Positions 5,597-10,160 of a stretch of DNA of 33,638 nucleotides are shown piece after piece. The stretch spans positions 1-33,638 of the forward strand of contig NZ_PVWJ01000052.1 of the NCBI RefSeq assembly GCF_003003775.1. The letters are read 5' to 3'. The translations under genes were made by a program, and so were the position numbers. The notes beneath the pieces are model-generated. The model saw only the letters and a list, made by a program, of their open reading frames with translations, did not search any database and was not told where the DNA came from. Within the stretch, counting starts at the first letter, position 1; every line of letters starts with the position of its first letter. The stretch comes from Merismopedia glauca CCAP 1448/3. GTDB taxonomy: Bacteria; Cyanobacteriota; Cyanobacteriia; Cyanobacteriales; CCAP-1448.

Positions 5597-6136
5597 ATGA
5601 AAAACTGGCCCACTTGGTTTCCCTGCCCTAGCGCGTGGATGAGCGCTTTATTTTTGACTGTATTTGCTGGTTCTATTGCCGTTTGGTCACAGAGAATTAG
5701 CGATCTAGGGATGTACTTAGCTAAATATTCCCACAGATTTACGTTTGGATGCGGAGTTTTAGCGATAATTTTCCCGATTATCATGGTGGCTATTATCCAT
5801 CATGTCTTTCACGTATTTCTAGATAACTGCCTTCCCGATTCCCAAGGTGCAGAAAGTACAAGAACTCAAGGTCTTTTTCCAACTACTTTCAGTTGGTGGG
5901 AAGGTTTATACAGTTGGTTAGTTCTGGTTTTAGCTACCATCTTAACTGGGGGAATTCTCGGTATTATCTTGTCTCAAGAAGAGATTTGGCGATCGCTATA
6001 CGTCTGGCAAAGAGTCTGGTACAAATTTGACTATCTCATGACTTTTCCCACTTTTGTTTGGGTAATAGTAGCAGCTTATTTATATCAATTTGAACACATA
6101 GTTCGCGAAAAATTTATAGCTGCTAAGACTCCCTAA
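5597..6136 (+). CDS. Four-helix membrane protein of unknown function
   Basis: I do not recognise the family. The 179-residue protein has four hydrophobic segments at about 14-31, 48-70, 103-126 and 148-166. A His-His-Val-Phe-His cluster (68-72) sits at the end of the second helix, followed by a 30-residue polar loop with one cysteine. Both termini are short. It lies 153 bp after ctaB and 56 bp before a dynamin-like GTPase, all on the same strand, so it could be a tail of the heme A operon or the first gene of the GTPase cluster. The upstream AGAAG supports the ATG at 5597. That it is a real gene is likely; any function would be a guess. Confidence 0.75.
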   Translation: MKNWPTWFPCPSAWMSALFLTVFAGSIAVWSQRISDLGMYLAKYSHRFTFGCGVLAIIFPIIMVAIIHHVFHVFLDNCLPDSQGAESTRTQGLFPTTFSWWEGLYSWLVLVLATILTGGILGIILSQEEIWRSLYVWQRVWYKFDYLMTFPTFVWVIVAAYLYQFEHIVREKFIAAKTP

Positions 6137-6192
6137 AATTCCAGAATTTAAACCCATTTTCAGGATTTTATCTCACTATTTTTAGCAATATA

Positions 6193-8283
6193 ATGACTAT
6201 GATTTCTCCCGTTGAATCGACAGTTTTCCTCGACCATTTAGAACTAGTTAATCGCGGACGCTCTCTAGTAGCTAGTTTATTAGAAAGCATGGCAGATCGA
6301 GTTAAATTTGCTGAAGATAGCACCAAGAGAAACTCAGGTCAATTGGGATTAGTTAGAGAGATTGAAGATTTAGATAGAGTTAGCGATAAATTAAAAAAAG
6401 GTGTTTTTAGGTTACTCGTACTCGGTGATATGAAGCGAGGAAAAAGCACCTTTTTAAATGCTTTAATTGGGGAGAAAGTTTTACCTAGCGATGTCAATCC
6501 CTGTACTGCTATTCTGACGGTTTTGCGGTATGGGACTACTAAAAAAGTGACTGTTTATTTTAGCGATCGCCGAAGTCCAGAAGAGTTAGATTTTCAAGAA
6601 TTCAAACTAAAATACACTATCGATCCATCGGAAGCAAAACAATTAGAGCAAGAAAATAAATCGGCTTTTCCTAATGTAGATTATGCAGTCGTTGAATATC
6701 CGTTACCTCTATTAGCTAAAGGAGTGGAAATCGTTGATAGTCCCGGACTGAACGATACAGAAGCGAGGAACGAACTATCATTAGGATATGTCAATAACTG
6801 TCATGCAATTCTGTTTGTTTTAGCTGCGTCTCAGCCTTGTACTTTAGCAGAACGTCGCTATTTAGAAAACTACATTAAAGATCGAGGATTGAGTGTTTTC
6901 TTTTTAATTAATGCTTGGGATCGAGTGCGGGAAAGTTTAATCGATCCTGATGATACAGAAGAGTTAGAGTTAGCGGAAACCAGATTGAGACAAGTTTTTG
7001 CGAATAATTTAGCTGAATACTGTCGGGTAGATGGTTACAATCTTTACGAAGAAAGAGTATTTGAAGTTTCTTCTCTTCAGGCTTTAAGAAAAAGATTAAA
7101 AAATCCAGATGCGTTGTTAGAAGGAACTGGGTTTCCTGAATTTATTAAGGCTCTAAATACCTTTTTAACCAAGGAAAGAGGAATAGCAGAATTACGGGAA
7201 GGAAGGACTATTGCTCGACAAATTACTCACAGAATTCAAGAGGCGATCGCCAGACGCATTCCTTTACTAGACACGGATGTAAATGAGCTAAAAAAACGAA
7301 TTAATTCCGTGACTCCAGAGTTTGAGCAACTAACTGAAATTCGCGATCGCTTCCAATCAGAAATAGTTAGGAGTCGAGATACAAAATCTCAGGCGATCGC
7401 TGAATCTTTTCGCACTTATACTTTAAATTTAGGGAACACATTTGAAGCTGATTTTCTCAAGTATCAACCTGAATTGAAGTTACTTGATTTCTTAAGTCAG
7501 GGAAAGCGAGAGGCGTTTAATGCAGCTATGCAAAAAGCTTTTGAACAGTACATAAATGATAAATTAGCAGATTGGAGTCGCAGCGCAGAACAAGAAATGA
7601 AAACTGCTTTTAGTCAACTTTCTCAAACTGCGGCTAAATACGGATCTTCTTACAATCAAATCACCGATAGAATCACCGAAAAACTGACGGGACAGCAAGT
7701 CCCTACTAATATCAATTCTACTACTGAAGATAACTCTCCAGGATGGGCAAAATGGGCAATGGGACTTTTCTCATTATCTACAGGTAATATCGCAGGGATG
7801 GCGCTAGCTGGTGCTGGTTTTGATTGGAAAAGTATCCTCCTCAATTACTTTACCGTAGTCGGTTTAGGTAGTATCATTGCCGCAGTATTTCCCGTGGCAC
7901 TTTTCGCAGGACCAATTGGATTGGGTTTGCTAGGATTAGGTGTAGGTGTATTTCAAGCCGATCGCTCTCGTCACGAAGTAGTAAAATTAGCCAAACAAGA
8001 GTTAGTTAAACATTTACCTCGCTTGGCTCAAGAGCAATCAAAAACTGTTTTTAATGCAGTTCAAGAGTGCTTTAATGTGTACGAACGAGAAGTAACTAAA
8101 CGCATCAATGAAGATATTCAATCTCGACAATCTGAACTAGATAATTTGTTGGCTCAAAAATCATCGTTTGAGATCGATCGCCAAACCGAAATAGAACGGT
8201 TACAAAAACTAGAAACAGAAGTTAGCGGTAAACTGAAAGAAGTCGAAAATATCTATCAAGATTGTATTTCCTCTTTGTCATAA
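6193..8283 (+). CDS. Dynamin-like GTPase 1
   Basis: This is a large GTPase of the bacterial dynamin-like protein family, expected to bind and remodel membranes. GTPase motifs are G1 Gly-Asp-Met-Lys-Arg-Gly-Lys-Ser (78-85), G2 Thr105, G3 Asp182-Ser-Pro-Gly185 and a G4-like Asn240-Ala-Trp-Asp243. Helical, charged stalk-like regions follow (about 335-510 and 600-696). A strongly hydrophobic block at about 549-588, rich in Gly, Val and Ala, fits a membrane paddle or hairpin. The 696-residue length suits the family. It follows the four-helix protein by 56 bp and precedes a second, shorter dynamin-like gene. The bacterial family is known to tubulate or fuse membranes; the physiological role here is unknown. 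Confidence 0.9.
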   Translation: MTMISPVESTVFLDHLELVNRGRSLVASLLESMADRVKFAEDSTKRNSGQLGLVREIEDLDRVSDKLKKGVFRLLVLGDMKRGKSTFLNALIGEKVLPSDVNPCTAILTVLRYGTTKKVTVYFSDRRSPEELDFQEFKLKYTIDPSEAKQLEQENKSAFPNVDYAVVEYPLPLLAKGVEIVDSPGLNDTEARNELSLGYVNNCHAILFVLAASQPCTLAERRYLENYIKDRGLSVFFLINAWDRVRESLIDPDDTEELELAETRLRQVFANNLAEYCRVDGYNLYEERVFEVSSLQALRKRLKNPDALLEGTGFPEFIKALNTFLTKERGIAELREGRTIARQITHRIQEAIARRIPLLDTDVNELKKRINSVTPEFEQLTEIRDRFQSEIVRSRDTKSQAIAESFRTYTLNLGNTFEADFLKYQPELKLLDFLSQGKREAFNAAMQKAFEQYINDKLADWSRSAEQEMKTAFSQLSQTAAKYGSSYNQITDRITEKLTGQQVPTNINSTTEDNSPGWAKWAMGLFSLSTGNIAGMALAGAGFDWKSILLNYFTVVGLGSIIAAVFPVALFAGPIGLGLLGLGVGVFQADRSRHEVVKLAKQELVKHLPRLAQEQSKTVFNAVQECFNVYEREVTKRINEDIQSRQSELDNLLAQKSSFEIDRQTEIERLQKLETEVSGKLKEVENIYQDCISSLS

Positions 8284-8504
8284 ACTGCTATATCATTTAT
8301 TTGTGAACTTACACTTAAGCTACTCTGCATTTAAATTATATAACTGGGGCAGGCAGGATGCCTACCCCACAAGAGTCTAATTAAATTTAAATATCTCTAG
8401 ATGCGTTTTAGCTGAATCCACCAAGTATTGATATCTCTCTCTGTGTTCTTTATGCCTCTGTGGTGAATTTAAAATTCCATACCTGACATCTTAGTAAATG
8501 AACC
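8284..8504. repeat. Spacer between the two GTPase genes with a GC-rich hairpin
   Basis: The 221-bp spacer holds an imperfect hairpin at 8345-8369: TGGGG pairs with CCCCA and AGGC with GCCT, with one mismatch and a 5-nt loop. It is related to the element at 4402-4455. No T-run follows, so it is not a classical terminator, and the two GTPase genes may still share a transcript. Confidence 0.5.
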
Positions 8505-10160
8505 GTGAATGAAAACCTTTTCAATTATCTAATGACAGCAATGGGAGTTTTGGCATTTGAGCCAAACTCTCAAATTAAGCAAGATGTAATTGCCCTTGGC
8601 GAGTACCTCCAAAACCCTCACTTTCGCATCGCAGTATTTGCACCTTTTAACTATGGTAAATCAACTTTACTAAATGCATGGTTAGGCGCTCGCTTATTAC
8701 CGATGGATTTGATTCCTACTACTGGTGCTGCAATTCATGTTAAATATGGAGAGCAGATCGAAACTCATATTACTCTAAAAGATGGCACAAAGATCGTCAA
8801 AAATGGGACAAATATTCTGCAAGAATATGCCATTTTAGATAACGATAGAAGGATGCGATCAGACGTTACTGCTGTTGAAGTTTATTATCCCGATCCTTGG
8901 CTCAAAACTGGAGTAGAATTAATCGATCTACCAGGTACAGACGATCGCGAAGCACAAGATAACTTAGTACGCGATCGCTTACTCACCGCAGATTTAATTA
9001 TTCAAGTTTTAGATGCTCGTAAATTAATGACTCTTAATGAAAGGGAAAATTTGCGAGATTGGTTGTCAGATAGAGGGATTAAAACAGTTGTTTTTGCAAT
9101 TAACTTTCTCAACTTAATTCCTTCAGAAGAACAGCAAGAAGTGAATCGTCGAATGCGATTTGTAGCTGAAAGTTTTCGATCTGAATTACCAAATAACGTC
9201 AGCAATCTTTACCGAGTTGATGCTTTACCAGCATTAAGAGCTAAACTCAAAGGAGATTCAGCCGCTTTAGCAACAAATGGATTAACTACTTTTGTTAGTG
9301 CGATAGAACAAATTACCGCAATTCAGCAGTCAGAAAAAAGCCTGCGTCTTCCTCGTTTACTAGCTGTAGTCGAACCAATCAAACAAGCTTTAGCCAGCAA
9401 AATCACGACTATTACCACTGAATTAACTGAAGCTAAAGAACAGTATCAAGCAGAAATTGAAGTCAAACAAAAAGCTGAAAAAATTATCAAACAAGCCTTT
9501 CAAAGAAGCCTTTCTGAACTAGAAAGTTGGTTGTATTTGCCAAACCTATTATCAGCTTATCAATCCCAGCTAGCTACAGCTTTAGAACAAAGTAAACTAG
9601 ACGATTGGGAAAATCAACAACTGCAACCCAAACTATTAGAATACCAAAACGCGATCGCACATTGGGTAAACAAAGCTAGTGAATTTTTTGACAAGAAACC
9701 TCCAGCCGAATTATCTATCACCTTACCCAAACCTCCAGAGATTCCCCTTCCCAAATCGCCAAATACCCCCAATAAATCCAGTGATGTCGATCTAACGCCA
9801 GTTGCGATCGCAACTGGATTAGGTTGGCTGTTAGGAGGACCTGTAGGTGCTGCTATAATTGGTGGTGCTACCTATTTAATTGATAAAAACTCAGAATCAC
9901 CTGTCAAACCAATTGTAACCGATCCCGAACTGATTAAAAAAGCTGCTAGTGAAGCGGCTAAAAACTATTTAACTACCTTTAGTAATGAAGCTTTCCCACC
10001 TCTGAAAGAGTATCAACAAATAGTAGAGAAGTGGCTAGATTTTCAACCTAGTTTAGAACCTCAAAACACGAGCGAGCGATATCATAATTTACAGCTATTA
10101 ACTACTTTATCCTCTAATTTAGAGCGAGAATTAGAGATATTATCCCCAAAAATATCCTAG
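8505..10160 (+). CDS. Dynamin-like GTPase 2, shorter
   Basis: A second and clearly different dynamin-like GTPase of 551 residues. G1 is Ala-Pro-Phe-Asn-Tyr-Gly-Lys-Ser (46-53), a Thr-Thr pair near 72-73 suits G2, and G3 is Asp141-Leu-Pro-Gly144. The G4 position reads Asn-Phe-Leu-Asn (near 198-201), lacking the usual final Asp, so base specificity may be relaxed. A long helical region (about 285-385), a Pro-rich stretch near 400-425 and a hydrophobic Gly/Ala block (about 432-460) follow. The start is a GTG; the nearby ATGs at 8498 and 8509 are out of frame. Adjacent unequal dynamin-like proteins are known to cooperate in some bacteria, and a heterotypic pair is a reasonable inference here. Confidence 0.87.
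   Translation: MNENLFNYLMTAMGVLAFEPNSQIKQDVIALGEYLQNPHFRIAVFAPFNYGKSTLLNAWLGARLLPMDLIPTTGAAIHVKYGEQIETHITLKDGTKIVKNGTNILQEYAILDNDRRMRSDVTAVEVYYPDPWLKTGVELIDLPGTDDREAQDNLVRDRLLTADLIIQVLDARKLMTLNERENLRDWLSDRGIKTVVFAINFLNLIPSEEQQEVNRRMRFVAESFRSELPNNVSNLYRVDALPALRAKLKGDSAALATNGLTTFVSAIEQITAIQQSEKSLRLPRLLAVVEPIKQALASKITTITTELTEAKEQYQAEIEVKQKAEKIIKQAFQRSLSELESWLYLPNLLSAYQSQLATALEQSKLDDWENQQLQPKLLEYQNAIAHWVNKASEFFDKKPPAELSITLPKPPEIPLPKSPNTPNKSSDVDLTPVAIATGLGWLLGGPVGAAIIGGATYLIDKNSESPVKPIVTDPELIKKAASEAAKNYLTTFSNEAFPPLKEYQQIVEKWLDFQPSLEPQNTSERYHNLQLLTTLSSNLERELEILSPKIS

Follow-up and report, generated by a model that had tools for sequence, protein, structure and literature searches.

The locus considered here raises the question of whether two unequal dynamin-like GTPases and the small membrane protein encoded upstream of them form a single membrane-acting system. 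It lies in the cyanobacterium Merismopedia glauca CCAP 1448/3 (assembly GCF_003003775.1, consisting of 254 contigs and 5.2 Mb), and the window denotes the whole stretch of DNA that was analyzed, namely 33,638 nucleotides of contig NZ_PVWJ01000052.1. The gene module, comprising the small gene, D1, and D2, is very probably real. The preferred explanation, in which D1 and D2 are a heterotypic pair and dedicated membrane partners recruit or anchor them, is given roughly even weight; the linkage of the genes is observed, and the mechanism is what we infer from it.

Organization of the locus

The three genes follow one another on the same strand (Table 1), and the open reading frames confirm the arrangement described in the initial annotation, a membrane protein with a 696-residue and a 551-residue GTPase. 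The ORF coordinates place 56 bp between the small gene and D1 and 221 bp between D1 and D2. The longer gap contains a GC-rich palindromic repeat with 22 copies in the genome at ≤2 mismatches (0 for the reversed control), and its hairpin could break transcription between the two dynamin genes. A promoter scan returned 9 promoter-like sites compared with 13.1 in shuffles, and a terminator scan returned 6 terminator-like sites compared with 4.1, none of the 6 lying between the genes; no claim on operon status is based on these scans.

Table 1. Features of the small gene-D1-D2 module, in window coordinates.
Feature	Coordinates	Strand	Description and basis
Small protein gene	5597..6136	+	179-aa ORF; integral membrane protein by four hydrophobic segments
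D1	6193..8283	+	696-aa ORF; phmmer match to BDLP1, PF21808, PF00350
D1-D2 gap	8284..8504	.	221 bp; hairpin-forming dispersed repeat at 8346-8368
D2	8505..10160	+	551-aa ORF with GTG start; PF00350, fold matches

The heme A genes ctaA and ctaB lie upstream in the window and were considered as a part of the system. A search of the other loci (L023-L134 and L142-L158, with limited flanks) did not find them, and hence they look like local neighborhood only, as had been suspected from the outset.

Apart from D1 and D2, the host genome harbors Dynamin_N matches at 14 places, not all of which are dynamins; the best further match lies in an 809-codon frame (matches listed at G000:C8:36356-37087 and elsewhere). 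The Dynamin_N family is not specific, since it is also matched in 12 of 14 control genomes.

The two dynamins

By sequence, D1 is homologous to BDLP1 over its full length, helical domain included. In a phmmer search, its residues 3-693 match the BDLP1 of Nostoc punctiforme (E 0, 1035 bits), a protein of solved structure (PDB 2J68, 2J69, and 2W6D), and Pfam detects the helical domain (PF21808, E 3.4e-173) as well as Dynamin_N (PF00350, E 5.5e-33). The G motifs of D1 are GDMKRGKST (G1), DSPGLND (G3), and NAWD (G4), which conform to GxxxxGKS/T, DxPG, and NxxD, respectively, and G4 reads NAWD or NGWD in 54 of 55 D1 proteins. Hydropathy reveals a hydrophobic block at residues 553-571. Fragmented matches to D1 occur in seven genomes (G016, G042, G043, G147, G160, G196, and G246), with stops in G042, and resemble genes in decay or breaks in the assembly.

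D2 is the shorter of the two, and its sequence and structural model identify it as a mitofusin/BDLP-type dynamin with a GTPase domain and neck/trunk helices. Pfam detects Dynamin_N (PF00350, E 1.5e-24), and among proteins of solved structure BDLP1 is the closest in sequence (2j68, E 8.8e-22). The motifs are APFNYGKST (G1), DLPGTDD (G3), and NFLN at the position where NKxD is canonical, such that the canonical G4 aspartate is absent. In an alignment of the window D2 with 37 of 39 others (A4; copies of 454 aa and 516 aa were left out), N200 and N203 are invariant in 38 of 38 rows, giving N-x-x-N. In Ras-like GTPases, replacement of aspartate by asparagine at the G4 position moves the preference toward xanthine nucleotides. 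A hydrophobic block is found at residues ∼434-459 by hydropathy, and the claims that both GTPases keep G1 and G3, carry a paddle-like block each, and are unequal in length and in G4 are borne out by the motifs and blocks described above.

The model of D2, built from 38 sequences, has a pLDDT of 81.2, with a poorly modeled and unreliable paddle-like stretch at residues 417-471. The best Foldseek match is 2j69 (E 1.5e-16), and the fold matches comprise BDLP1, IniA, mitofusins, and the Campylobacter dynamin pair.

In 8 of 55 D2 matches, a count that includes some genomes twice, a J domain follows D2 on the same strand at ≤500 bp. It shares one open frame with D2 in L032, L033, and L037 and is encoded separately downstream in L030, L035, L070, L116, and L117; L037, the sole J-domain locus scanned, matches Pfam DnaJ at 9e-14. 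The position of the J domain beside D2 suggests a link of the dynamin to Hsp70.

The dynamin pair across the order

The prevalence of the pair was assessed in a sample of 120 genomes of the order, counting D1 at ≥45% identity and D2 at E ≤ 1e-40. While 46 genomes have a D1 match at E ≤ 1e-40, 6 of these at 25-27% identity were not counted as D1. Both D1 and D2 were found in 40 of 120 genomes each; the 41 genomes with either consist of 39 with both, one with D1 alone, and one with D2 alone (Fisher p 3e-29, relatedness ignored). Among these 39 with both, the closest D1 and D2 copies are ≤1.2 kb apart in 20, ≤6 kb in 28, and ≤15 kb in 32, and the remainder have them on different contigs (6) or far apart (1). 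The linked pairs lie on one strand in 31 of 32 cases, and tandem copies of D1 are present in 13 genomes. The linkage of the two GTPases in relatives, on which the initial annotation had staked part of its proposal, is therefore upheld by 39 of 41 genomes for presence and 32 of 39 for proximity.

The pair itself is not new, as BDLP1 has been reported in tandem with a second dynamin, BDLP2 (PMC4159319), and the dynamin groups Tandem A and Tandem B are known in cyanobacteria (Jilly et al. 2018, PMC5827413). Genes encoding leucine-rich repeats occur between D1 and D2 in G020, G068, and G086 (Pfam was run on one of them); at L063-L065, L086, L115, L120, and L121, such genes separate the dynamin genes from each other or the small gene from D2.

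The small membrane protein

The upstream gene encodes a protein with four hydrophobic segments by hydropathy and the motif HHVFH at residues 68-72, in agreement with the four-helix protein and His-His-x-x-His cluster first described. An AlphaFold2 model displays five helices at a mean pLDDT of 88.8. The conserved blocks are W-x-P, P-I...HHxxH, SWWEGxYxW, and Y163, and the residues P60, H68, H69, S99, W101, E102, Y105, and Y163 are each present in ≥43 of the 46 rows of the alignment (A3, in which one 127-aa fragment was left out). No family in Pfam, NCBIfam, PADLOC, or PHROGs matches the protein, and matches to SteA-like_C and to an ABC permease model were rejected as far below the cut-off; four relatives (L026, L068, L046, and L142) likewise have no Pfam match over the cut-off. 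Foldseek returned no match to the fold at E ≤ 0.001, and the best VIA Z was 5.3 over 77 residues. None of the fold matches was clear, and helical ones such as those to a BAR domain, to sulerythrin, and to Rnf subunits were set aside. The named loci with the small protein are cyanobacterial in 32 of 32 records.

A single-protein search detected the small protein in 19 of 120 genomes, the weakest case (G098) being a match of 37 residues, and a profile search detected the family, longer extended relatives included, in 103 of 388 genomes. D1 and D2 were mapped in 54 of these 103 genomes of the order, and the other 49 (≤143 bits) are outside the following count. Beside D1 and/or D2, the small gene is found in 19 of the 54 (G000, G015, G016, G032, G043, G049, G054, G064, G073, G090, G107, G146, G164, G185, G205, G222, G247, G342, and G353). 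Outside the order and within the same class, 8 genomes carry the family at E ≤ 1e-20 (one of two copies was examined in G544), with adjacency in 3 (G438, G456, and G550). Altogether, 22 genomes with 11 family labels have the small gene adjacent to a dynamin. These genomes are related and thus not independent; nevertheless, the adjacencies are not attributable to chance, since random placement within 2 kb is expected in far less than 1% of cases by an estimate from genome size.

The adjacent small genes comprise 20 distinct sequences, that of the window included, and all 20 lie on the strand of the dynamin, with 33-521 bp separating them from the closest dynamin match. The order of genes varies. 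The exact window order, small-D1-D2, recurs in G185, G205, and G247, while D1-D1-small-D2 is found in G032, G054, and G064, small-D2 in G073 and G049, D1-small in G342 and G353, and c1-small-D1(-D1)-D2, with the c1 family described below, elsewhere. Among the 16 best hits in the 388 genomes (≥215 bits), 14 are adjacent to dynamins; of the two exceptions, one comes from a genome in which neither D1 nor D2 is matched at E ≤ 1e-40, and the other lies on a 4.2-kb contig. A midpoint-rooted tree, in which identical rows were merged and stretches of <100 residues dropped, places all 20 adjacent sequences together with 12 non-adjacent ones, some of them fragments or on short contigs, on one branch of 32 rows with support 99/91, and 0 of the 29 rows outside that branch are adjacent. 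The tool warned that the window row sits on a long branch.

Viewed from the dynamins, the small gene is less constant. In the 120-genome sample, D1 is present in 14 of 16 genomes with the small family at E ≤ 1e-20 (Fisher p 2.5e-6, relatedness ignored), but the small gene is adjacent in 11 of 40 D1 genomes and not adjacent in 29, and the pair can therefore do without it. Relatives of the small protein in Nostoc/Anabaena-type genomes lie away from dynamins, in eight loci near an lpx-like or lipid A-type gene run (L095, L097, L100, L101, L103, L106, L112, and L114; neighbor genes named by eye), and most of these relatives have C-terminal extensions. Given distant homologues that lack dynamin neighbors and the majority of pair genomes that lack an adjacent copy, the small protein is best regarded as an optional partner. 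The proposal that the three genes form one system thus stands in part. Co-occurrence, linkage, and a shared strand speak for it, and the small gene recurs beside dynamins as predicted in 20 of the 32 rows of its own clade; the adverse outcome envisaged at the start, homologues found mainly without dynamin neighbors, is half realized, as the wider family mostly lies elsewhere and the gene is often missing beside the pair.

A second small family upstream of D1

A further family, c1, consists of proteins of ∼110 aa with a charged, coiled-coil-like N-terminus and a hydrophobic C-terminus. It is encoded directly upstream of D1, for example at L056:3009-3326 and at 20 other loci, and 20 of these 21 proteins were aligned (A2). 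A profile search found no c1 in the genome of the window. At ≥69 bits, 31 hits were obtained in 120 genomes, and 26 are adjacent to a dynamin gene, one of them within 668 bp of D2 and the others no more than 405 bp from D1; below 69 bits there are 12 hits, none of them adjacent to D1 or D2. As a strict dynamin marker c1 was rejected once profiles of D1 and D2 had been applied to the 5 exceptions among the 31: 4 have no dynamin nearby, and in G057 neither dynamin passed the ORF search (broken frame). Four members of c1 were scanned with Pfam, and one weakly passes DUF3040 (28.3 bits vs 24.7).

The two small families also occur together, as c1-small-D1 in G222, G438, G456, and G550 and as c1-small-D2 in G015. 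These runs, present in 2 genomes within the order of the window and 3 outside it, make an ancestral cluster c1-small-D1-D2 plausible, and the window may plausibly hold a version from which c1 was lost. A c1 gene (≥69 bits) or a small-family gene is present somewhere in 35 of 40 D1 genomes; among the 5 that have neither are G020, G068, and G086, the genomes with leucine-rich-repeat genes between D1 and D2.

Proposed mechanism and rival explanations

The identity and conservation of the genes, their co-occurrence and linkage on a shared strand, and their repeated re-association are observed. The small protein is a candidate docking partner because its gene travels with dynamins in many cyanobacteria. 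In the preferred explanation, D1 would bind and curve the membrane through its hydrophobic paddle, and the shorter D2 would pair with it, a physical interaction proposed by analogy to the hetero-complex of the Campylobacter pair (PMC6104087). The four-helix protein may recruit or anchor the pair at one membrane, like the receptors of mitochondrial dynamins, and c1 may share or take over the anchoring role in other cyanobacteria. In the cell, the system would most likely serve to tether, fuse, or repair either the plasma membrane or the thylakoid membrane. A receptor-based machine, in which D1 and D2 are docked by the four-helix protein and c1, with an optional J-domain module and with D2 as a regulatory or non-canonical nucleotide subunit, is a tentative possibility. 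We know of no earlier membrane receptor for a bacterial dynamin, and the small protein would be the first.

The conserved His-His and Glu within a membrane protein are also compatible with enzymatic activity or with binding of a metal or heme. On balance, it is rather unlikely that the small protein works independently as an enzyme, a transporter, or a metal/heme binder, for instance in lipid or envelope chemistry, and that its tie to the dynamins is co-expression under the same stress, with no physical partnership. The near-invariant H68, H69, S99, W101, E102, and Y163 look like a functional site, and the relatives away from dynamins, many of them C-terminally extended, together with the 12 non-adjacent rows of the clade, fit such a role; re-association with D1 or D2 in several orders on one strand, however, exceeds what co-regulation usually needs. 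Chance neighborhood, with a small gene that merely precedes the dynamins, is already disfavored and very improbable in light of same-strand adjacency in varied order across the 22 genomes and 11 families, even though many distant homologues are encoded elsewhere and the short gap to D1 is the one sign of co-transcription.

An anti-phage or stress-defense role of the cluster is improbable; under this reading, the dynamins would work on damaged membrane, with the small membrane proteins as sensors or effectors. PADLOC has no hit for the small protein, its LeoA hits to D1 (58 bits) and D2 (32 bits) fall short of a strong whole-model match and resemble general dynamin similarity, and no split leoB/leoC arrangement is present among the ORFs of the window. 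The weak LeoA/LeoBC similarity nonetheless counts toward a defense role, as do the patchy presence of D1 and D2 (each in 40 of 120 genomes), broken-looking copies in some genomes, and a study in which a Bacillus subtilis dynamin reportedly provides phage resistance.

Comparison with known systems

D1 adjoins a second, much diverged dynamin, as is described for BDLP1/BDLP2 and for the Tandem groups, and the passages available from these sources mention nothing resembling the 179-aa protein or c1 (PMC4159319, PMC5827413). D2 is the putative counterpart of BDLP2/Tandem A. A role of the small protein or c1 as a dynamin partner was not found in the open-access literature, including the accessible parts of PMC5827413, PMC6104087, PMC9950537, and PMC4159319, although the gene-context supplement of PMC5827413 might list neighbors; PMC2862293 has no mention of BDLP2 or an operon. 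The Campylobacter proteins Cj-DLP1 and Cj-DLP2 (PDB 5OWV, 5OXF) are likewise two unequal adjacent dynamins, and their operon, in the portion of the source available, includes a putatively HcpA-like beta-lactamase and no four-helix membrane protein (PMC6104087). The D2 model matches chains of both at 11-17% identity.

The top Z for the D2 model belongs to Fzo1 (9kfd_B, Z 27.6 over 325 residues, rmsd 4.8), and MFN1 (5yew_A) follows at 27.3. Mitofusins and Fzo1 share 16-18% identity with D2, in which transmembrane anchors are putative. For BDLP1, crystal and tube structures exist and the function in the cell is called unclear in the part of PMC5827413 available. What is newly recognized here is a recurrent membrane partner, the small protein, of an already known dynamin pair, and together with c1 it provides a concrete handle on which membrane the pair works at and how it arrives there. 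The dynamin-recruiting membrane proteins Mff, MiD, and Fis1 are proposed as functional analogues, with no claim of homology. Each of these is anchored by a single segment, whereas the small protein has four hydrophobic segments.
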